From Bradyrhizobium sp. SK17 (GTDB lineage: Bacteria; Pseudomonadota; Alphaproteobacteria; Rhizobiales; Xanthobacteraceae), in the NCBI RefSeq assembly GCF_002831585.1, contig NZ_CP025113.1:930001-994000 (forward strand): 64,000 nucleotides of DNA, written 5' to 3'. A program made the position numbers and the translations under genes. The notes beneath the pieces are model-generated. The model did no database searches, had not been told where the DNA came from, and saw only the letters and a list, made by a program, of their open reading frames with translations. Shown here one piece after another: positions 9,507 through 34,650 of the stretch. The number at the start of each line of letters is the position of its first letter. Within the stretch, counting starts at the first letter, position 1.

Positions 9507-10760
9507 ATGGGCCGCCTCGTGATGAAATTCGGCGGTACGTCCGTCGCCAATATCGATCGTATCCGCAACGTCGCGCAGCATGTGAAGCGCGAGGTCGACG
9601 CGGGCCATGAGGTCGCCGTCGTCGTCTCGGCGATGTCCGGCAAGACCAACGAGCTGGTGGCCTGGTGCACCGATGCCTCCGCCCTGCACGACGCGCGCGA
9701 ATATGACGCGGTGGTCGCCTCCGGCGAGCAGGTGACCTCGGGCCTGCTCGCGATCGTGCTGCAAGGCCTCGGTATCCAGGCGCGCTCCTGGCAGGGCTGG
9801 CAGATCCCGATCAAGACCTCCGACGCGCACGCCTCGGCGCGCATCCTCGAGATCGACGGCACCGAGATCATCACCCGCTTCAAGGAGCGCAAGGAAGTCG
9901 CCGTGATCGCCGGCTTCCAGGGCATCAATCCCGACACCGGCCGCATCACCACGCTCGGCCGTGGCGGCTCGGATACCTCGGCGGTGGCGATCGCGGCCGC
10001 GCTGCATGCCGACCGCTGCGACATCTACACCGACGTCGACGGCGTCTACACCACCGACCCGCGGGTGGTGCCGAAGGCGCGCCGGCTCGACAAGATCGCA
10101 TTCGAGGACATGCTTGAGCTGGCCTCGCAGGGCGCCAAGGTGCTGCAAGTCCGCTCGGTGGAGCTCGGCATGGTGCACAACATGCCGATCTTCGTGCGCT
10201 CCAGCTTCGACAAGCCAGAGGATATCGACCCGCACGGCACGCCGCCGGGCACGCTGATCTGCAGCGAGGAGGAAATCATGGAAATGCACGTCGTCACCGG
10301 CATCGCCTTCTCGAAGGACGAAGCCCAGATCTCCGTGCGCCAGATCGAGGACAAGCCGGGTGTGGCCGCCGCGATCTTCGGGCCGCTGGCCGATGCCAAT
10401 ATCAATGTCGACATGATCGTGCAGAACGTGTCCGAGGACGGCAAGACCACCGACCTCACCTTTACCGTTCCGGCCACCGACTATAACCGCGCCCGGGATA
10501 CCATTACCTCCGCCAAGACCAAGATTGGCTACATCAGGCTCGACACCGAGACCGACGTCGCCAAGGTCTCGGTGATCGGCAGCGGCATGCGCAGCCACGC
10601 CGGCGTCGCGGCGAAGGCGTTCAAGGCGCTGGCCGAGCGCAACATCAACATCCGCGCCATCACCACTTCCGAGATCAAGTTCTCGGTCCTGATCGACGCC
10701 GCCTATACCGAACTCGCGGTCCGCACCCTGCATACGCTGTACGGGCTGGACCAGGCGTAG
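9507..10760 (+). CDS. lysC: Aspartate kinase
   Basis: A 417-residue aspartokinase that phosphorylates aspartate, the first step toward lysine, threonine and methionine. The start MGRLVMKFGGTSVANIDRI carries the family signature KFGGTSV at residues 7-13. TTLGRGGSDTSAVA marks the active-site region, and two ACT domains follow from about residue 265 and bind feedback inhibitors. Length and ACT arrangement match the single-function, lysine/threonine-sensitive type of alphaproteobacteria. The start ATG 9507 follows AAAGGAA. It is divergent from the PH-domain gene. Confidence 0.95.
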   Translation: MGRLVMKFGGTSVANIDRIRNVAQHVKREVDAGHEVAVVVSAMSGKTNELVAWCTDASALHDAREYDAVVASGEQVTSGLLAIVLQGLGIQARSWQGWQIPIKTSDAHASARILEIDGTEIITRFKERKEVAVIAGFQGINPDTGRITTLGRGGSDTSAVAIAAALHADRCDIYTDVDGVYTTDPRVVPKARRLDKIAFEDMLELASQGAKVLQVRSVELGMVHNMPIFVRSSFDKPEDIDPHGTPPGTLICSEEEIMEMHVVTGIAFSKDEAQISVRQIEDKPGVAAAIFGPLADANINVDMIVQNVSEDGKTTDLTFTVPATDYNRARDTITSAKTKIGYIRLDTETDVAKVSVIGSGMRSHAGVAAKAFKALAERNINIRAITTSEIKFSVLIDAAYTELAVRTLHTLYGLDQA

Positions 10761-10804
10761 GGGCGATCGAGGGACCAGGCCGGCCGGGGGAGCTCCCTCT
10801 GCCT

Positions 10805-10904
10805 TCATTCCGGGGCGTGCGCAGCACGAGCCTGGAATCCATCGGGCCGCAGGTTCCGTGGATAAATGGATTCCGGGCTCGTGCTGCGCACGCCCCTGAA
10901 TGAC
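10805..10904. repeat. Palindromic intergenic repeat, family A copy 2
   Basis: Outer arms are cattccggggcgtgcgcag and gcgcacgcccctgaatg, with inner arms ggaatccat/atggattcc. The copy is shorter than copy 1 but uses the same core words. It lies downstream of lysC. Confidence 0.85.
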
Positions 10905-11067
10905 GAGGGGAGAGAAGGAGCCGTGCTCCACTACCCCGCCCCGGAGTTAGAATTTCTCTTAGCGGGCGCAGCATTACGTTGACGCAGACGTTATTTGCTA
11001 CTGGCAGGCGTTTTGCTTGGCAAAGCAAGCCTCGATTGGCTATACGGCCAGTCAGGTGGGCTGCCGC

Positions 11068-11084
11068 AAACTGTGCCACAGTTT
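11068..11084. promoter_or_regulatory. Perfect 17-base palindrome upstream of ptsP
   Basis: The sequence aaactgtgccacagttt is an exact inverted repeat of eight bases around a single central C. It lies about 120 bases before the ptsP start and looks like a dimeric regulator binding site. The cognate protein is unknown. It could also be a small hairpin in the transcript. Confidence 0.45.
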
Positions 11085-11203
11085 TGGCGATCCCGATTCG
11101 GCGGGAAACGGCGCCGAGCGACTAAAATTGTTTGTTTTGACGAGTTTTACGCCAGCGGCCGACCACCCTCGTGGGTCGGTCTCGTGGGGAGGGACTGAAG
11201 CTT

Positions 11204-13471
11204 ATGCGGAGCGCGTCGGGAGGCCCACGCATCCTGTTGAGACGGCTCCGCGAAACCATGGCGGAGCAAGTCTCCGCCCAGGAGCGCCTCGACAAGATCG
11301 TGGTGCTGATCGCGGCCAACATGGTGGCCGAGGTCTGCTCCTGCTACGTGCTGCGCGTCGACAACACGCTCGAACTCTATGCCACCGAAGGTCTGAACCG
11401 CGACGCCGTGCACCGCACCGTGCTGAGCGCGCATGAGGGCCTGGTCGGCCTGGTCGCCAGCGAGGCGACGCCGCTGAACCTGTCCGACGCGCAAAACCAT
11501 CCCGCCTTCGCCTACCGCCCGGAGACCGGCGAAGAGGCCTACCACTCGTTCCTCGGCGTGCCGATCCTGCGCGCCGGCAACACGCTCGGCGTGCTTGTCG
11601 TGCAGAACCGCGCCAAGCGGACCTATGTCGAGGAAGAGGTCGAGGCGCTGCAAACCACCGCCATGGTGCTGGCGGAGATGATCGCGTCCGGCGAGCTTGC
11701 CGCGCTGGCCCAGCCCGGCGCCGAGCCCGCGGCGCGGCATTCGCTGCACAAGACCGGCGCGGTGCTGTCGGACGGCATCGCGCTCGGCCATGTCGTGCTG
11801 CATGAGCCGCGCGTCGTCATCACCAACTACATCGCCGAGGACCTGCCGAAGGAAATCAAGCGGCTCGACACCGCGCTGGCCAATCTGCGCGCCGACCTCG
11901 ACCGCATGCTGGAGCGCGGCGACGTCGCCGAAGGCGGCGAGCACCGCGAGGTGCTGGAAGCCTATCGCATGTTCGCCAACGACCAGGGCTGGTCGCACAA
12001 GCTGCACGAGGCGGTCGCCACCGGCCTCACGGCGGAAGCCGCCGTCGAACGCGTGCAGTCCGACACCCGCGCGCGGATGCTGCGCTCGACCGATCCCTAT
12101 CTGCGCGACCGGCTGCACGACCTCGAGGATCTCGGCCATCGCCTGATGCGGCAGCTGGTCGGCCAGGACCACGCGCCGTCGCGCGAGCAATTGCCCGACA
12201 ACGCCATCCTGATCGCCCGCGCGATGGGTCCGGCGGCGCTGCTCGACTACGACCGCAAGCGGCTGCGCGGCCTGGTGCTGGAGGAAGGCACCGCGAATTC
12301 CCACGTCTCGATCGTGGCGCGCGCGCTCGGCATTCCCGCGGTCGGCGAGGTGCCGAACGCGCCCGGCATCGCCGATCCCGGAGATGCCATCATCGTCGAC
12401 GGCATTTCCGGCGAGATCTATGTCCGCCCCTCCGCCGAGATCGAATCGGCCTATGCCGAGCGCGTCCGGTTCCGGGCGCGGCGGCAGGCGCAATATTCGG
12501 CGCTGCGCGACAAGGCCTGCGTGACCAAAGACGGCCAACCGATCGAACTGTTGATCAATGCCGGCCTGACCATCGACCTGCCGCATATCGAGGAGACCGG
12601 CAGCGCCGGCATCGGCCTGTTCCGCACCGAATTGCAGTTCATGGTGAGCCCGAGCCTGCCGCGCTCCAGCGACCAGCTCGCGCTGTATCGTACCGTGCTC
12701 GACGCGGCGGGCGCCAAGCCCGTCACCTTCCGCACGCTCGACATCGGCGGCGACAAGGCGCTGCCCTATATGGAGACCGTGGTCGAGGAAAATCCCGCGC
12801 TCGGCTGGCGCGCGATCCGTCTCGGTCTGGACCGTCCGGGCCTGTTGCGTGGCCAGATCCGCGCGTTGCTGCGCGCCGGTGGCGGCCGCGCGCTGAAGAT
12901 CATGTTCCCGATGATCTCGGACATCGCCGAGTTCGACCAGGCCAAGGCGATCGTCGAACGCGAGCTGACCTATCTGCGCCAGCACGGCCATTCGCTGCCC
13001 GAACGCATCGATATCGGCACCATGGTCGAGGTCCCGGCCCTGCTCTACCAGCTCGACGAGCTGTTGAAGAAGGTCGATTTCGTCTCGGTCGGCTCCAACG
13101 ATTTGTTCCAGTTCCTGTTCGCGGTCGACCGCGGCAACTCCAAGGTTTCCGAGCGCTTCGACATCCTGTCGGCGCCGATCCTGCGCGCGCTGCGCGACAT
13201 CGTGCGCAAGGCCAGGGCCGCCAAGAAGGTCGCCTCGCTGTGCGGCGAGATGGCCTCGAAGCCGATCGGCGCGCTGGCGCTGATCGCACTCGGCTATCGC
13301 TCGCTGTCGCTGTCGGCGACCGCGCACGGCCCGGTCAAGGCGCTGATCCTCGACCTCGATGCCAAAAAGGCCGAGGCGATGATCAATCCGCTGCTGGATG
13401 CACCGGTCGGCAGCGTCTCGATCCGCGAGGCGCTGACGAAATTTGCGGAAACCGAGGGGCTGGCCTTGTAG
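11204..13471 (+). CDS. ptsP: Phosphoenolpyruvate-protein phosphotransferase of the nitrogen PTS (EI-Ntr)
   Basis: A 755-residue EI-Ntr. An N-terminal GAF domain (about residues 20-165) is followed by the PEP-utilising EI module. The phosphorylated histidine is H367 in GTANSHVSIVARALG, and the PEP-binding barrel follows (FRTLDIGGDKALPYME, GSNDLFQFLFAVDR, SLCGEMASKP). EI-Ntr passes phosphate from PEP to NPr and EIIA-Ntr, linking nitrogen status (glutamine sensed by GAF) to potassium transport and PHB metabolism. I start at ATG 11204 (MRSASGGPRILLRRLR), preceded by GGGAGGGACTGAAG, as in related proteins. Confidence 0.94.
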   Translation: MRSASGGPRILLRRLRETMAEQVSAQERLDKIVVLIAANMVAEVCSCYVLRVDNTLELYATEGLNRDAVHRTVLSAHEGLVGLVASEATPLNLSDAQNHPAFAYRPETGEEAYHSFLGVPILRAGNTLGVLVVQNRAKRTYVEEEVEALQTTAMVLAEMIASGELAALAQPGAEPAARHSLHKTGAVLSDGIALGHVVLHEPRVVITNYIAEDLPKEIKRLDTALANLRADLDRMLERGDVAEGGEHREVLEAYRMFANDQGWSHKLHEAVATGLTAEAAVERVQSDTRARMLRSTDPYLRDRLHDLEDLGHRLMRQLVGQDHAPSREQLPDNAILIARAMGPAALLDYDRKRLRGLVLEEGTANSHVSIVARALGIPAVGEVPNAPGIADPGDAIIVDGISGEIYVRPSAEIESAYAERVRFRARRQAQYSALRDKACVTKDGQPIELLINAGLTIDLPHIEETGSAGIGLFRTELQFMVSPSLPRSSDQLALYRTVLDAAGAKPVTFRTLDIGGDKALPYMETVVEENPALGWRAIRLGLDRPGLLRGQIRALLRAGGGRALKIMFPMISDIAEFDQAKAIVERELTYLRQHGHSLPERIDIGTMVEVPALLYQLDELLKKVDFVSVGSNDLFQFLFAVDRGNSKVSERFDILSAPILRALRDIVRKARAAKKVASLCGEMASKPIGALALIALGYRSLSLSATAHGPVKALILDLDAKKAEAMINPLLDAPVGSVSIREALTKFAETEGLAL

Positions 13472-24855: not shown

Positions 24856-25289
24856 TGGCCGACCTCTCGGCTGCCGACATCATCGCGCGGCTCGATCTGA
24901 AGCCGCATCCCGAAGGCGGGCATTATCGCGAGACGTTTCGCGACGAGCGCACTGACGCCGCCGGACGCGCGCATTCGACCGCGATCTACTTCCTGCTCGC
25001 GCGCGGCGAGCGCTCGCACTGGCATCGCATCGACGCGGTCGAGATCTGGCACTATCACGCCGGCGCGCCGCTGACCCTGCGGATCGCGCAGGATGGCGGC
25101 CCGCAGCAATCGATCAGGCTCGGGCCAGATGTCGCGCGCGGCGAACAACCGCAGGCGATCGTGCCGGCGGGCGCCTGGCAGGCGGCGGAAAGCGGCGGCG
25201 ACTGGACGCTGGTCGGCTGTACCGTCGCGCCGGGATTCGAGTTCTCGAAGTTCGAGCTGGCGCCGAAGGGCTGGGAGCCGGCTCGCTAG
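24855..25289 (+). CDS. DUF985 cupin protein
   Basis: A 144-residue single-domain cupin (LKPHPEGGHYRETFRD, STAIYFLLARGERSHWHRIDAVEIWHYHAG), the pattern of DUF985. The histidines in HWHRIDAVEIWHYH suit a metal site, but no enzyme activity is established for the family. ATG 24855 overlaps the gloB stop (TGATG), so it is translated with gloB; a GTG one codon earlier is also possible. The link with glyoxalase II suggests a part in aldehyde or glutathione metabolism, but this is inference. Confidence 0.85.
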   Translation: MADLSAADIIARLDLKPHPEGGHYRETFRDERTDAAGRAHSTAIYFLLARGERSHWHRIDAVEIWHYHAGAPLTLRIAQDGGPQQSIRLGPDVARGEQPQAIVPAGAWQAAESGGDWTLVGCTVAPGFEFSKFELAPKGWEPAR

Positions 25290-25293
25290 CTTC

Positions 25294-25378
25294 GTAGGAT
25301 GGGTAGAGCGCAGCGAAACCCATCTACTTCGGTCCGCATGGCAAAGTGATGGGTTTCGCTGCGCTCTACCCATCCTAC
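25294..25378. repeat. Palindromic intergenic repeat, family F
   Basis: The left arm gtaggatgggtagagcgcag and the right arm gcgctctacccatcctac pair almost perfectly over about 28 bases, with a loop of about 28 bases. It lies between the convergent cupin and transporter genes. Confidence 0.85.
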
Positions 25379-25380
25379 AT

Positions 25381-26253
25381 CTACGTTCTTTTCCTCAACA
25401 CCATATCCTTCGCCGCGATCAGCCCGCCGCCGGCGATCAGGATCGCGGCGATCGCGATGTTGGCACTCGGCCTGGCAAAGCCCGCAAGAATCAGGAACGC
25501 GGTCGAGAGCAGCGGCGTGGCATAGGACGCGGCGCCGAGCACGCGGATGTCGCCGCGCTTCATGCCGATGTCCCAGGCAAAGAACGCCGCGCCCACCGGA
25601 CCGATGCCGAGCGCGATGACCGCAAGCCATTGCAGCAATGTTGTTGGCCACACCGTGGTCTCCACCATCATGTGCACGGCCGCCGCGAGCACCGCGGTCG
25701 CAAGACAGAAGCCCGCCACCGCATCGGTCGGCACCGCCTTGAGCCGGCGCGACATCACCGAATAGGCAGCCCACACGAAGGCCGCGACAAAGGCCGCGGC
25801 GAAGCCTGGAATCTGCTCTTTGGTGAAAGCGCCGGTGTTGCCGGCGAACAGCAACACGGTGCCGGCAAGGCCAAGCAACGCGCCGACGATGTGGTGGATC
25901 GCAAGCCGCTCGCCCGGCAACAGCGAGGAAAACAACACGATCAGGAGCGGCCAGAGATAATTGAGCAGGCCCGCCTCGGCCGGCGGCGCGAAGCGCAGCG
26001 CCAGGAAATACAGCGCGTGATAGCCGAACAGGCCGCCGACGCCGACCACCCAGGCCACCAGCGGCTGCTTCAAGGCGCCGAACGCTGTGGGACGGAACAG
26101 GAAGCTCGCGAACGCGACCGCGGCACCGATCGCAAACGTCATCGCGGCGAGCTGGAATGCCGGGATGGTCCCGGTCGCGACCGTCATGACCGACAGCAGC
26201 GACCACATCAGGATCGCGGTCAGTCCGACAAGGGTGGCAGTCCGGGTCGTCAT
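25381..26253 (-). CDS. DMT family transporter, YddG-like
   Basis: A 290-residue protein with ten hydrophobic helices. The start MTTRTATLVGLTAILMWSLLSVMTVATGTIPAFQL resembles the YddG branch of EamA transporters, which export aromatic amino acids. The family pattern PPAEAGLLNYLWPLLIVLFSSLLPGERL closes the first half. I prefer ATG 26253; the frame also has a GTG two codons upstream. No biosynthetic neighbour is present, so the substrate is a guess from family resemblance. Confidence 0.8.
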   Translation of the reverse strand: MTTRTATLVGLTAILMWSLLSVMTVATGTIPAFQLAAMTFAIGAAVAFASFLFRPTAFGALKQPLVAWVVGVGGLFGYHALYFLALRFAPPAEAGLLNYLWPLLIVLFSSLLPGERLAIHHIVGALLGLAGTVLLFAGNTGAFTKEQIPGFAAAFVAAFVWAAYSVMSRRLKAVPTDAVAGFCLATAVLAAAVHMMVETTVWPTTLLQWLAVIALGIGPVGAAFFAWDIGMKRGDIRVLGAASYATPLLSTAFLILAGFARPSANIAIAAILIAGGGLIAAKDMVLRKRT

Positions 26254-26361
26254 TTGCACTCATCCGTAGAGCCGGCTTAGCCGTCCGGAGGACGGCGTCG
26301 CTTCCGCTCGCCTATGTCACGGCCGGCCCTCTCTTTGCTTTGCGCCGGGCGGTTGTAAAGA

Positions 26362-29588: not shown

Positions 29589-31952
29589 TCACGTCCCCAT
29601 CGTCCCGCCAAACATGTTCTTGGGCACGATCGCGTGCACGCCCCAATTGCCGTCGGCAACCTGGGTGACGCCGAAATCGACGCCGAGCGAGATCAGCGCC
29701 AGCGCCTCATCCTCGCTGAGGCGATAGCACTCCATCAGGAATTTGCGCGTCGCGCGGAATGCATTGCGCAGCGCGAGATCGACCGACGAACGCTGGTAGA
29801 TTTCAGACTGCGCATTCCGCCCGAGCTCCCGCAGGTAATTGCCATAGCTGAAGCCGTGCAGGATCCACGCCTCCGGCGTTTCCAGGAGCGGATGCGCAAG
29901 GCCCTCGACATGCGGCTTGGCAGCGCTGCCGCTCTTGTGCAGCACGAAGCGAAACTGGCCGGTGAGCGATAGCTCGAGCGCGGTGCCGTTGACCTCGCCG
30001 TCGCCCTGCGCGAAATGCGGATCGCCGATCGAGAACAGCGCGCCGGGCACGGCGACCGGAAGATACAGCGTGGTGCCCTTGGTGGCGCGCCAATTGTCGA
30101 CATTGCCGCCGAAATAGCCCGGCGGAATCGAATCGATGATGTCGGACTCGCGCGGCGCCACCGCCATGAAGCCGAAATGCAATCGCGCCGGGATGCGCAC
30201 GCCGGCCAGCACGCCCTGCCGTTTCTCGATGGTGGCGTGGTCGACCGGCACGCCCGGATAATCCATCGTCTCGTGACGCACGCCGAACGGATCGGTCTGC
30301 GGCGTCCAGCGATAGGAATAGAGGGCGTGGGCCCATTCTGCCCGCGCGTCGGTCTCGAAGATCGTGATGGTCTCGCGCCTGGCCGGCTGATCGATCAGGT
30401 CGTTGTACTGAAAGCCCCACCAGGCCGCGGCATTGCTGCCGAACGACTTGCCGGCAAAGGCCGGGTTGGCGGAGGGCCGCGGCCAGATATCGAGGATCTG
30501 CACCTCGAGCACGTCGCCGGGCTCCGCGCCGCAGACATGGATCGGACCGGTGCAGATGTGCACGCCAAAGCCTTCGCCGGCGCCACGGCCGAAGATCGAA
30601 CCGTCCATCGGGCCGGCGCCGCGCCGTTCCACCGACTTGCCCTCGGCGGTCCAGCGAAACACGCTCTCGGCGCCCGGGTCGCCCTTGATCATGCGCTCAT
30701 AATCATCGAAGGCGTGCTGGGTCAGCGTCTCGATCGTCACCAGCGCGCCCGACCGCACGCTCATGACAGGCGGAATGGCGCGGCTGAGATAACCCCAATG
30801 GGCAGTCTCCCTCGACACCTTGAGATGATGATGGGAGGCGTCCCGCCCTTCCGGCGCCGCCGCTGGCTCGACCGCCAGGATCGGCTCCTGCTGCGCAATC
30901 GTCCCGCGCGATGCCGGGCTTGGCGCGAGCCGCAGCACGGTCGCGGTGCCGCGTGCCAGCCGCGGCCGGCCGCGCGTACGCTCGCTCGCGACATCGCGCG
31001 GCACCGCCTTGCGGAAGTCGCGCGGCGAGGTGCCGTAGGTCGCGCTGAACATCCGGCTGAAATGCGCCTGATCGGTGAAGCCCCAGCGATAGCTGATTTC
31101 GGCGATGCGCTGGTCGGCGTAGTTCGGATCGATCAGATCGTTGCAGCAGCGCTCCAGCCGCCGCTCGCGCACATAGGCGGAGAATGTCGTGCTCTGCCGT
31201 TCGAACAGCCGCTGCAAATAGCGCTGCGACAGGCCTTCCTGCCGGGCGATGTCGGCGATCGTCAGACCGGCATTGCCGAGCTGGGCCTCGATCGCGGCAT
31301 CGACCCGCCGCAAATGGCCGGCCTGGACCTGCGTCATCGCCTCCGCATCGAGCCGCGTCTCGCCGAGTAGCGCGCCGGCGATGAGCTCGGTGACCGCGAC
31401 CTCGGCAGTGGCGAGATCGGCCTTGTCGAGGATCGCGAAATTGCCGCCCAATGTCCGCATCACCGGCCGCACGGCCGCCGCGGCAATCGATGCGCCGAGC
31501 ACGGCCGGCAGACGCAGCCGATTATGCCCGAGCCGGCCGAGCAGCCGCTCGCGCGGCAATTCGAGCAGCAGGATCTCGAAATCCTCGCGTAAAGCCATGC
31601 GCCAGGGCGATTGCAGGTCGCACACCGAAACGTCGTTGTCGGCGAATTCGCACCTGCGTGGGCCGGACGCGACGCTGCCGCGGCCGTAGGCATGGAAGAT
31701 GATGGCGACCCGCGCCGGCATTCCCGGTGACGCGGCGTGACCGTTGCAGACGATCTGCTGCTCGGTGGAACGCAGCAGCGCGAGCTGCGCGCCGCTGGTC
31801 GAACGCTTCGCGGTCAACTCGCCGAACTGGAATTGGCCGGCCTCCGGCAATTCGCAATCGAGCTGCAAGCCGGACAGCGCCTCGCGCCACATCTCCCGCC
31901 GGTTTTGCCGCGGGATCGCATCGACCGAAATCCGGTAGGTCGTCGCGACCAT
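29589..31952 (-). CDS. AraC-type regulator fused to acetamidase/formamidase
   Basis: A 787-residue two-part protein. Residues 1-315 form a complete AraC regulator: a cupin-like sensing domain of the AraC_binding_2 type (about 20-200), then two helix-turn-helix motifs (LTIADIARQEGLSQRYLQRLFE and IAEISYRWGFTDQAHFSRMFSATYG). After a 60-residue Ala/Pro linker, residues 375-787 form a full FmdA/AmdA acetamidase/formamidase domain (GAGPMDGSIFGRGAGEG, VDHATIEKRQG, ISLGVDFGVTQVADGNWGVH). Start ATG 31952 has GGAGG just upstream. There is no signal peptide, so it is cytoplasmic. The divergent neighbour is an exported version of the same enzyme. The junction is continuous in one frame, with no stop near it. 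Confidence 0.92.
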   Translation of the reverse strand: MVATTYRISVDAIPRQNRREMWREALSGLQLDCELPEAGQFQFGELTAKRSTSGAQLALLRSTEQQIVCNGHAASPGMPARVAIIFHAYGRGSVASGPRRCEFADNDVSVCDLQSPWRMALREDFEILLLELPRERLLGRLGHNRLRLPAVLGASIAAAAVRPVMRTLGGNFAILDKADLATAEVAVTELIAGALLGETRLDAEAMTQVQAGHLRRVDAAIEAQLGNAGLTIADIARQEGLSQRYLQRLFERQSTTFSAYVRERRLERCCNDLIDPNYADQRIAEISYRWGFTDQAHFSRMFSATYGTSPRDFRKAVPRDVASERTRGRPRLARGTATVLRLAPSPASRGTIAQQEPILAVEPAAAPEGRDASHHHLKVSRETAHWGYLSRAIPPVMSVRSGALVTIETLTQHAFDDYERMIKGDPGAESVFRWTAEGKSVERRGAGPMDGSIFGRGAGEGFGVHICTGPIHVCGAEPGDVLEVQILDIWPRPSANPAFAGKSFGSNAAAWWGFQYNDLIDQPARRETITIFETDARAEWAHALYSYRWTPQTDPFGVRHETMDYPGVPVDHATIEKRQGVLAGVRIPARLHFGFMAVAPRESDIIDSIPPGYFGGNVDNWRATKGTTLYLPVAVPGALFSIGDPHFAQGDGEVNGTALELSLTGQFRFVLHKSGSAAKPHVEGLAHPLLETPEAWILHGFSYGNYLRELGRNAQSEIYQRSSVDLALRNAFRATRKFLMECYRLSEDEALALISLGVDFGVTQVADGNWGVHAIVPKNMFGGTMGT

Positions 31953-32339
31953 CACCCCTCCGGGCCGCCACACCGCGGCCTTCCAGTCACAGAGCCGTGA
32001 AGACAGCGTGCACCGATTGCCGGGGCGCGGCAAGCATGTTGCTGCGGCACGCGCTGCCCAGCCTTCGTGCAATGGACGCAAGCGGCCGCGGTTACGCCGC
32101 AGCACCGTTGCCCGCGAACGCAGTGCAACTTGATCGAATACGTCCAAATTCTTGACCATCGCGGCCACGCCGCAATGCGGAGGCAGCCGTCTCACCTGGC
32201 TTCCACGCCTTTGCGCGGGCGTTCGCGCCGCAAGGAACAGCATCGCACCTACAAATTATTGGGCGCGCCCGGTCATGTCGGGACGACGGCGCGCGATGCA
32301 GTCTCGTGCGCACACTTTCGATCCAAGGGAGAGCCAAAG
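31953..32339. promoter_or_regulatory. Divergent control region between the AraC-amidase fusion and the exported amidase
   Basis: This 387-base gap separates the two divergent amidase genes and is where the fused AraC protein would be expected to bind. No gene is seen. AT-richer patches occur at 32125-32155 and 32245-32262, which may be promoters, but no clear -35/-10 pair or direct-repeat operator could be picked out by eye. Confidence 0.4.
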
Positions 32340-33794
32340 ATGTGCGCAGGTGACGACAAGAACTGCCCGGACTTCGAATTGCATCATCGACAATTCAAGG
32401 AGACGCTCGACCGGGAACGCCGCTCGTTCCTGCGATCGAGCTTCGCGGCGGCCGGCGGCGCAGCGGCGATGACCGCCGGCGGCATCTCGCTGGTGACACC
32501 GAAGATGGCGGCCGCCGCCGAAAAACACCAGCCGGCGCAGCGCGCCTATCACCATCTGCCGGCCAATGCCGACACCGTGCATTGGGGCTATTTCAGCAAG
32601 ACGCTGAAACCGCGCGTCGAGATCAATTCCGGCGACTTCATCACGATCGAGGCGCTGACGCACCACGCCAATGACGATGCCGAACGCATGGTGAAGGGCG
32701 ATCCCGGCGTCGAGAGCGTCTATCTCTGGACCAAGGAGAAGAAGGGCGTGAATCGGCGCGGCGCGGGTCCGATGGACGCCTCGCTGTTCGGACGCGGCGC
32801 CGGCGAAGGCCTCGGCGTGCATATCTGCACCGGGCCGGTGTTCGTGCGCGGTGCCGAGGAAGGCGACGTGCTCGAGCTACGCATCATCGACGTCGCGCCG
32901 CGGCCCTGCGCCAATCCGAAATATTCCGGCAAGGCGTTCGGCAGCAACGCCGCGGCCTCGTGGGGCTTCCACTACAAGGATCTGCTCACCGAACCGAAGC
33001 CGCGAGAGGTCGTCACCATCTATGAGGTCGACGCAACCGGCGAACGCAACTGGGCGCGTGCCGTCTACAACTTCACCTGGACGCCGCAGACCGATCCGTC
33101 CGGCGTGGTGCACAAGACCATCGATTATCCCGGCGTCCCGGTCGATCATTCGACGGTCAAGGAGAACCACGGCATCCTGAAGAACGTGCGCATTCCGGTG
33201 CGGCCGCATTTCGGGGTGATCGGGCTCGCGCCGAAGGAGGCCGAGTTCGTCGATTCGATTCCGCCGAGCTACACCGGCGGCAACATCGACAATTGGCGGA
33301 TCGGCAAGGGCGCCACGATGTATTACCCGGTGGCGGTCGAGGGCGGGCTGCTGTCGGTCGGCGATTCGCACGCCTCGCAGGGCGATTCCGAACTGTGCGG
33401 CACCGCGATCGAATGCTCGCTCAACGGCACCTTCCAGATCATCCTGCACAAGAAGGCCGACCTCGCGGGCACCGCGCTGGAAGCGCTCGACTACCCGATG
33501 CTGGAGACGAAGGACGAATGGCTGGTGCACGGATTCAGCTACGCCAACTATCTCAGTGAGCTCGGCTCCAGCGCGCAGACCGAGATTTACAAGAAATCGT
33601 CGGTCGACCTCGCCTTGCGCGACGCCTTCCGCAAGATGCGCAAGTTCCTGATGACGACCAAGAAGCTGACCGAGGACGAGGCGATCTCGCTGATCTCGCT
33701 CGGCGTCGATTTCGGCGTCACCCAGGTGGTCGACGGCAATTGGGGCGTCCATGCGGTGATCCGCAAGGACATCTTCGCCGGCGGCGACAACTGA
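32340..33794 (+). CDS. Tat-exported acetamidase/formamidase
   Basis: A 484-residue amide hydrolase of the FmdA/AmdA family. Its N-terminus has a twin-arginine motif ERRSFLRSSFAAAGG at about residues 27-41 followed by a hydrophobic stretch and an AAAA cleavage area near residue 60, preceded by about 26 polar residues. The enzyme domain (about 75-484) closely parallels the fused copy across the promoter: RRGAGPMDASLFGRGAGEG, TPQTDPSGVVHKTIDYPGVP, ISLGVDFGVTQVVDGNWGVH. It should hydrolyse short amides to acid and ammonia. Start ATG 32340 follows AGGGAGA. The Tat signal implies folding before export. Confidence 0.9.
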   Translation: MCAGDDKNCPDFELHHRQFKETLDRERRSFLRSSFAAAGGAAAMTAGGISLVTPKMAAAAEKHQPAQRAYHHLPANADTVHWGYFSKTLKPRVEINSGDFITIEALTHHANDDAERMVKGDPGVESVYLWTKEKKGVNRRGAGPMDASLFGRGAGEGLGVHICTGPVFVRGAEEGDVLELRIIDVAPRPCANPKYSGKAFGSNAAASWGFHYKDLLTEPKPREVVTIYEVDATGERNWARAVYNFTWTPQTDPSGVVHKTIDYPGVPVDHSTVKENHGILKNVRIPVRPHFGVIGLAPKEAEFVDSIPPSYTGGNIDNWRIGKGATMYYPVAVEGGLLSVGDSHASQGDSELCGTAIECSLNGTFQIILHKKADLAGTALEALDYPMLETKDEWLVHGFSYANYLSELGSSAQTEIYKKSSVDLALRDAFRKMRKFLMTTKKLTEDEAISLISLGVDFGVTQVVDGNWGVHAVIRKDIFAGGDN

Positions 33795-33985: not shown

Positions 33986-34650
33986 ATGACCATCCAGCTC
34001 TACGGCTTCTGGCGCTCGAATGCGGCATTCCGCGTCCGGGTCGCGCTGGCGCTGAAGAACCTTCCGTTCGAGGAAATCGACATCGACATTCTGTCCGGAC
34101 GCCAGTTCGATCCGGGCTACGCCGACGTGAACCCGGAGCACGTCGTGCCGACGCTGGTTCACGACGGCCGCCTCGTGTTCCAGTCCTTGGCGATCGTCGA
34201 ATATCTCGATGACATCACGGCCGAGCCACGGCTGTTGCCGACCGACGCCGCCGAACGGGCCTATGCGCGGTCACTGGCCATGATCCTCGCGGCGGACGTG
34301 CACCCGCTGACCGTTCCGCGTGTCCGCAAATATCTCGGTCAGGTACTCGGCGCCGACACGGCCGCCATCGAGTCCTGGTGCAGGCATTGGACCGCCGAGG
34401 GCTCTCGACCTACGAGCGCCTGCTGGTGCGACGTCCACCCGTCCCCTTTGCGCTGGGAGCGACGCCGACGATCGCCGACATCAGCATCGCCGGCCAGGTG
34501 GCGCTGGCCGATGTCTACCGCATGGATCTCGCAGCGTTTCCCGCGGTAGCGGCGTTGGCGAAGCGCTGCTTCGCATTGCCGGCCTTCGCCGACGCGCATC
34601 CGTTTCAGCAGCCCGGCTACAAGACCTCGGGCGAGGCTCGGCAAGTGTGA
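33986..34650 (+). pseudogene. Glutathione S-transferase, maleylacetoacetate isomerase-like, with a one-base deletion
   Basis: The start MTIQLYGFWRSNAAFRVRVALALKNLPFEEIDID is that of zeta-class GST/maleylacetoacetate isomerase, with the glutathione site VPTLVHDGRLVFQSLAIVEYLD. At 34397-34403 the codons for AEG should run into LSTYERLLVRR, but one base is missing (gag gg ctc) and the first frame diverges. The second half (TIADISIAGQVALADVYRMDL) is intact to the stop at 34650. The restored length is 221 residues, normal for the family. Such enzymes act in tyrosine/homogentisate or gentisate breakdown. A sequencing error is likely. Confidence 0.82.

Follow-up and report, generated by a model that had tools for sequence, protein, structure and literature searches.

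What is an amidase doing at the end of a transcription regulator, and why does a second amidase of the same family stand next to it? The question is raised by a stretch of 64,000 nucleotides from Bradyrhizobium sp. SK17 (NZ_CP025113.1, positions 930,001 to 994,000 of the forward strand; this whole stretch is the window, and positions are counted within it), in which a single gene encodes an AraC-type regulator fused to a domain of the FmdA/AmdA (acetamidase/formamidase) family and is divergent from a gene for a paralogous amidase with a putative signal of the twin-arginine translocation (Tat) type. A first-pass annotation, made from the sequence alone, had proposed that the two genes may form a compact circuit in which the cytoplasmic fusion senses the amide or its product and controls the exported enzyme. 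Comparison with related loci suggests that the fusion is probably a one-component regulator with the amidase fold as a second sensor, controlling neighbouring genes for enzymes and importers.

An AraC regulator and an amidase in one open frame

The fusion gene is stop-free throughout its 787 codons, with the last base of its stop at 29589, and it probably starts with the ATG at 31952, which has GGAGG just ahead of it; the frame stays open further upstream, up to an ATG at 32243, and relatives begin at the position of 31952. Pfam profiles recognise AraC_binding_2, the sensor/dimerisation domain of AraC/XylS proteins (34.7 bits, cut-off 27), in the N-terminal part, the paired helix-turn-helix motifs of the same family (HTH_18, 74.7 bits, cut-off 33.6; HTH_AraC, 53.9 bits in two stretches, cut-off 26.6), and FmdA_AmdA (PF03069, 96.9 bits, cut-off 27), the last being also supported by the fold. 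The AlphaFold2 (AF2) model of the complete protein has a mean predicted local distance difference test score (pLDDT) of 83.3 and a predicted template modelling score (pTM) of 0.72, and Foldseek searches with this model relate the sensor part of the regulator to the sensing domains of AraC, BgaR and ToxT.

The divergent gene, separated from the fusion by 387 bases (31953-32339), encodes a second FmdA_AmdA protein (104.8 bits), whose N-terminus has the twin-arginine motif RRSFLR and a hydrophobic stretch; Pfam and NCBIfam gave no Tat signal model at E 0.01. Neither the fused domain nor the paralogue belongs to the FmdA equivalog (NF045496; 60.3 and 60.2 bits, respectively, against a cut-off of 500), and the closest solved relative of both is PDB 3B9T. 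The first-pass annotation was thus right about the unbroken gene, its coordinates and its domains, all of which score above the Pfam cut-offs, and about the gap, family and motif of the second amidase.

Recurrence and origin of the fusion

All 120 best of 2691 homologues (E <= 0.001) carry both HTH_18 and FmdA_AmdA, at identities down to 53%. For comparison of gene neighbourhoods we used 80 loci, the best of 233 confirmed relatives in the genome collection, chosen as top matches to the fusion query; the Alpha-, Beta- and Gammaproteobacteria are represented, and one bin bears the label Actinobacteria. Each has one open fusion frame (L096 runs off its contig), a count which, given the best-match selection, cannot measure how often the fusion breaks. 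Among 117 genomes sampled from the genus, 53 have a fusion match and one has a fusion piece. In five of these genomes the fusion is 93-100% identical and an amidase match lies close by on the opposite strand; in 48, it is 46-53% identical and a second amidase match is found on the same contig and strand. Another 14 genomes have a stand-alone Tat-type match only, and 49 are without any match at 1e-60. In the phylum sample of 299 genomes, 13 have at least one match at 1e-100 and six have the fusion.

The stop or frameshift at the junction, or the lack of relatives, which in the first-pass annotation would have spoken against the fusion, did not turn up in the assembled sequences. The only stop counted within genus fusion matches (G069) is the natural C-terminal stop, at the same place as that of L040 (frame 9560-12355). 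That an assembly error or a frameshift has joined two genes is practically out of the question: we found no point in support of it, and it is ruled out by the recurrence of an uninterrupted junction, which is seen in all of the best 80 loci as well as in the four other close genus genomes.

The 81 rows of fused amidase domains group as one clade (Shimodaira-Hasegawa-like approximate likelihood ratio test, SH-aLRT, 97), which makes a single fusion event likely. The Tat rows and the 20 rows of near cytoplasmic amidases also form one clade each (SH-aLRT 84 in both cases); in the second tree, the root, placed for drawing only, lies inside the fused rows. Two fusion types, only ~47% identical and with partners of different kinds, occur in one genus; this suggests that the module has been transferred horizontally. 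Fused domains diverge together with their partners: pairwise identity of the former tracks that of the Tat partners (r = 0.89; 28 Tat-type loci, 378 non-independent pairs) and, in 20 loci, that of the near cytoplasmic partners (r = 0.69, pairs again non-independent). Compared with the Tat partners, the fused domains are more divergent in 378 of 378 pairs, with mean identity of 64.8 versus 76.9%.

Substitution of an invariant histidine

In an alignment of 141 amidase cores (60 stand-alone and 81 fused rows), 82 columns are invariant in the stand-alone rows, and 59 of them are kept in at least 95% of the fused rows. Only two are altered in the majority of fused rows; one is a Leu that is replaced by Ile or Val, and the other is His108 (numbering of the paralogue), which is His in 60/60 stand-alone rows and, among the 81 fused rows, Gln in 73 and His in eight. 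The fused domain in the window differs at six of the 82 columns, Gln412 at the place of His108 included. A pattern count among the 120 best of 2691 homologues gave Gln in 115, His in four and Pro in one, and all 24 genus loci L014-L037 have one frame with ETLTHH and another with ETL(T/S)QH. Of the eight His-bearing fusions, L043 is found among the Gln rows, and the other seven fall into two groups branching close to the stand-alone rows. The role of His108 is perhaps catalytic. The view of the fused domain as an ordinary active amidase is doubtful: most invariant residues are kept, but the His-to-Gln change is specific to the fusions.

A predicted operator upstream of the fusion and its partners

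Gapped words were counted in 17 intergenic regions; the top words occur in nine and seven regions, compared with maxima of 5-8 in twelve shuffles, which is not decisive alone. The word CAAA-N2-CTTG showed extended similarity and became the seed of a position matrix, which was refined on 21 divergent intergenic regions with 17 representative sites, the site of the window itself among them. In most of the 21 regions, the positions that it picked out correspond in their relative location. The consensus of 39 sites, picked by hand, is G(T)C-N5-GCGCACAAAnnCTTG. In the window, the core of site 1 reads ACGTCCAAATTCTTGAC (32140-32156); its block varies at two bases and is otherwise conserved among five aligned Bradyrhizobium intergenic regions, and the CCCAATAATTTG block of a weaker second site is identical in all five. 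The palindrome is weak (best column correlation 0.48), so that we claim no inverted repeat.

The held-out set consisted of 55 loci of at least 9 kb, five shorter loci and the 21 training regions, including the window, having been excluded beforehand. The best match of the whole locus lies inside an upstream zone in 28 of these 55 loci, where 1.64 would be expected and 40 column-permuted matrices, run on the same 55 loci, gave a mean of 1.6 and a maximum of 6, with the reservation that the zones were drawn after the matches in those loci were known, so that this is not a blind prediction. Thirteen of the 28 matches lie ahead of the fusion, eight ahead of a paralogue, three ahead of an importer gene and four ahead of a gene of cluster 17 (22.6 bits for Polysacc_deac_1, below the cut-off of 23.1); two of the 28, in L087 and L096, have low scores (13.6 and 11.5 bits). 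As for the failures, in L088 and L102 the top match precedes the importer gene, whose mechanically called start is too early, and in L107 and L114 it likewise does so once the start is projected by homology; L076 and L079, whose top match is another 17-mer elsewhere or lies outside a zone, reach 13.8 and 12.6 bits, respectively, at no more than 300 bp from the start projected for the importer gene, and L094 has only 7.5 bits there. With starts projected in this way, a match scoring 11.9 bits or more is found within 300 bp for 11 of the 12 importer genes examined.

Since the zones were not blind, new loci were taken for testing from the genus (8 of the 48 of the same-strand type). In all eight, one of which (L141) is on the same contig as the held-out L107, the top match of the 12-14 kb scanned (13.7-20.6 bits) lies 72-110 bp before the projected importer start. 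Upstream of Tat amidase genes without a fusion, nothing above 8.9 bits was found within 400 bp in 13/13 testable loci, the fourteenth being at a contig end. Operator placement, which is comparative evidence, is the main argument that the fusion very probably regulates its neighbours. Control of the exported enzyme, as proposed in the first-pass annotation, gains support from the presence of the operator upstream of partners that have a fusion, from its absence upstream of Tat genes that have none, and from the joint divergence of fused and partner domains.

A search of the genome of this strain does not show the operator to be unique there: a loose 16-mer with one mismatch has 105 matches, as compared with 84 for the reversed control, and with zero mismatches there are five, one of which is in the 387-bp gap, for a pattern written with knowledge of the site in the window.

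Partners and gene neighbourhood

Partners were searched for in flanks of up to 10 kb, and Tat-type proteins were called by an RR-x-hydrophobic pattern within 75 residues ahead of the amidase core. An amidase paralogue is present in the flank in 59 of the 80 loci, adjoining the fusion in most of them and as far away as 6.8 kb in some. The partner is of the Tat type in 27 loci (20 divergent, six on the same strand, one convergent), near cytoplasmic in 20, and a distant relative of ~340-400 amino acids in 12. Fixed pairing of the fusion with a divergent Tat enzyme, found in 20/80 loci only, has to be rejected as a general rule; by the same counts, the circuit is not specifically about the exported enzyme, which is one of several partners.

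A cytoplasmic amidase partner comes with an amino-acid-type importer, and loci without a partner are mostly TRAP transporter loci. Gene clusters represented by SBP_bac_3 and by a permease-ATPase occur in 19 and 20 loci, respectively, a gamma-glutamyltranspeptidase cluster in nine and RidA in seven, these families being named from one scanned representative per cluster. Judging by these neighbours, the substrate may be an amide or an amino-acid-like compound that the cell imports.

Twelve loci (L045-L053, L063, L066 and L071) have no amidase paralogue, and in all of them the top operator match is just upstream of the fusion. TRAP genes (DctQ/DctM clusters) are called in nine of the twelve, and gamma-glutamyltranspeptidase is within the examined range in eight, with shadow frames called at that place in the others. 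In L096, L099 and L113, His-bearing fusions stand beside a distant amidase and three common neighbour families (clusters 25, 37 and 38), which by eye we take to be a Rieske oxygenase, an MFS transporter and an extradiol-type dioxygenase; this neighbourhood perhaps serves an aromatic amide route.

Proposed mechanism and its alternatives

The scheme that we favour, and consider fairly probable, is as follows. The fusion would be a cytoplasmic one-component transcription regulator, the AraC half of which binds the conserved operator (approximately GTC-N5-GCGCACAAAnnCTTG) upstream of amide-handling genes. The target in the window would be the divergent Tat-exported paralogue; in other loci, its place would be taken by a paralogue in the cytoplasm or by an importer, either an amino-acid-type ABC system or a TRAP system. 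The amidase half, tethered through a flexible linker some 50 residues long, would be a former amidase that acts mainly as an effector-binding sensor, the effector being the substrate, or the product, of the neighbouring enzyme. We infer that binding of this ligand activates, rather than represses, the enzyme or importer dealing with the amide. After a single fusion event, most lineages would have exchanged the invariant His for Gln while mostly keeping the other conserved residues. It is likewise fairly probable that the amidase half serves as a sensor and that its catalysis has been altered. The fuller evolutionary account is more tentative, and we would put it at slightly under even chances: an AraC family in which each regulator has a pair of sensors. 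One sensor would be an amidase retired from catalysis, now reading the substrate of the living paralogue; the His-to-Gln exchange would mark the conversion, and the fusions that keep His look like the state before that step.

Several observations weigh against this scheme. Eight fusions keep the His, and His108 is not family-wide; the aligned position in PDB 3TKK is Cys, so that His108 is read as a feature of the subfamily. Faster divergence of the fused domains is weak in comparison with the cytoplasmic partners (123 of 190 pairs, 77.0 versus 81.5% identity). On the side of the operator, besides the unblinded zones and the contig common to L141 and L107, 27 of the 55 held-out loci have their top match outside the zones; about a dozen of the matches are near-identical Ancylobacter-type sites, so that the P value of the held-out test is overstated; scores of 13-15 bits arise by chance within a few kb, and one of the negative loci has 15.7 bits inside a gene; and the site in the window itself deviates from the core. 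Two further points, namely the 41 of 82 invariant columns that are unchanged in all 81 fused rows, which fits a working enzyme too, and the 21 of 80 loci without a partner amidase, some of them on short contigs, also speak for the most serious alternative. This is a trigger enzyme, in which a fully active fused amidase signals by turnover or occupancy to the AraC half, the protein being both cytoplasmic amidase and regulator. The wider-family signature residues GGNxD, GDxH and GDxE are indeed kept in the fused domain of the window. However, that domain differs at six of the 82 columns, the His-to-Gln change is seen in 73/81 fused and 0/60 stand-alone rows, fused domains are more divergent than their Tat partners, and a stand-alone paralogue is present in the 59 loci mentioned above; we regard a trigger enzyme as possible but rather unlikely.

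A regulator that senses through AraC_binding_2, fused to a metabolic enzyme merely for co-expression and with no signalling role for the amidase half, is conceivable because AraC_binding_2 is in itself a sensor fold, one that resembles the sensing domains of AraC, BgaR and ToxT. However, the fused domains have their own residue signature and remain one clade across three classes in spite of changed partner enzymes and importers, an argument limited by the fact that all 80 loci being fused is in part a matter of selection; we regard this explanation as improbable. Slightly less improbable, and still unlikely, is that the GCGCACAAA..CTTG element is a promoter or the site of another regulator. 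The operator is a predicted one, the loose 16-mer is not rare in the genome of the strain, and GCAC...TTG faintly resembles sigma-54 promoters. Spacing and the GG/GC pairs nevertheless differ from the sigma-54 consensus, and for the spacing we set the sigma-54 promoter aside; moreover, the element accompanies the fusion whatever the kind of partner, and where there is no fusion, it is absent ahead of the Tat gene.

Features of the window

Table 1. Coordinates of the fusion gene, its paralogue and the predicted operator sites in the window
Feature	Position	Strand	Basis
Fusion gene, AraC regulator and FmdA_AmdA domain, 787 aa	29589..31952	-	Open reading frame, Pfam, AF2
AraC unit, ~residues 5-316: AraC_binding_2 and two helix-turn-helix motifs (HTH_18, residues 235-315)	31005..31940	-	
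Flexible linker, ~residues 320-369	30846..30995	-	Low pLDDT in AF2 model
Fused amidase domain, ~residues 370-784 (low pLDDT also at 446-461)	29601..30845	-	
Gln412, codon CAG, at the place of the His invariant in stand-alone relatives	30717..30719	-	Alignment
Tat-type paralogue, FmdA_AmdA amidase, 484 aa, His108 kept	32340..33794	+	
N-terminus of paralogue, ~residues 1-60: Cys motif MCxGDDxxCP, RRSFLR, hydrophobic stretch	32340..32519	+	Motif only
Operator-like site 1	32137..32162	+	Matrix; training site
Weaker second operator-like site	32244..32269	-	13.4 bits

The Tat-type amidases have a cysteine motif ahead of the twin arginine in 28/28 rows, in the form MCxGDDxxCP or MCxGNDxxCP in alphaproteobacterial rows and HxCxxxCxHG in beta- and gammaproteobacterial rows. 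Such a motif is unusual in a signal region, and a role in metal binding or proofreading would be a guess. Elsewhere in the window, the open reading frame 33986-34549, with no relative in L038-L041, presumably resembles the N-terminal part of maleylacetoacetate isomerase; its last ~45 residues look out of frame by eye. Open reading frames on both strands of 25093-26263 contain a string resembling GWVERSETH...DGFRCALPIL; by eye, it is more suggestive of a dispersed repeat than of protein.

Relation to known systems

Our literature search, covering titles and abstract openings, found no study of an AraC-amidase fusion, in agreement with the first-pass annotation, which knew of no described example; database sources, however, already use the name 'acetamidase/formamidase/AraC-like DNA-binding protein', so that the fusion is visible there. 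To the extent of our search, the AraC-amidase pairing is new, as are its operator and its residue signature. There are few cases in which the passage from an enzyme to a sensor of transcription can be followed stepwise. Here the stand-alone enzyme, His-keeping fusions and Gln fusions all exist as natural proteins, many of them with a predicted operator; as the His-kept fusions mostly branch nearest to the stand-alone enzymes, the path, if true, could be replayed with natural intermediates. The family is also a candidate amide-responsive switch. It connects importers with a little-studied amidase subfamily, that of 3B9T, whose members are exported or cytoplasmic, and this connection limits the range of compounds among which the substrate is to be sought.

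Each half of the protein has a familiar relative. The regulator half has its best NCBIfam match in FeaR (NF007243), with which it has AraC_binding_2 and HTH_18 in common; at 126 bits it is under the cut-off of 199 for that equivalog, and FeaR is not known to have an enzyme tail. The amidase half has the same fold and length as PDB 3B9T, a Tat signal protein of Methylobacillus flagellatus with 57% identity to it, which differs in being stand-alone and in having the His. Enzyme folds joined to a DNA-binding domain in one chain are known among trigger enzymes and enzyme-regulator fusions, such as PutA, BirA, NadR, MocR/PdxR and Ada; none of these is known to be an AraC-amidase, and in contrast to them, the apparent target here is a separate paralogous enzyme.

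One-component regulators with an enzyme-derived sensor are a known kind, of which BzdR is a worked case. In BzdR, a DNA-binding domain is linked to an effector-binding domain derived from shikimate kinase, and loss of enzymatic activity is called essential for its evolution (PMC3602430). The two systems are alike in having a linker between the DNA-binding and the enzyme-like domain, which in the fusion would correspond to the low-pLDDT residues of the model, and they differ in the families of both domains. The fusion is an AraC regulator that has its own AraC_binding_2 and, in addition, a second, C-terminal amidase domain, and its His-bearing and His-lacking lineages coexist.

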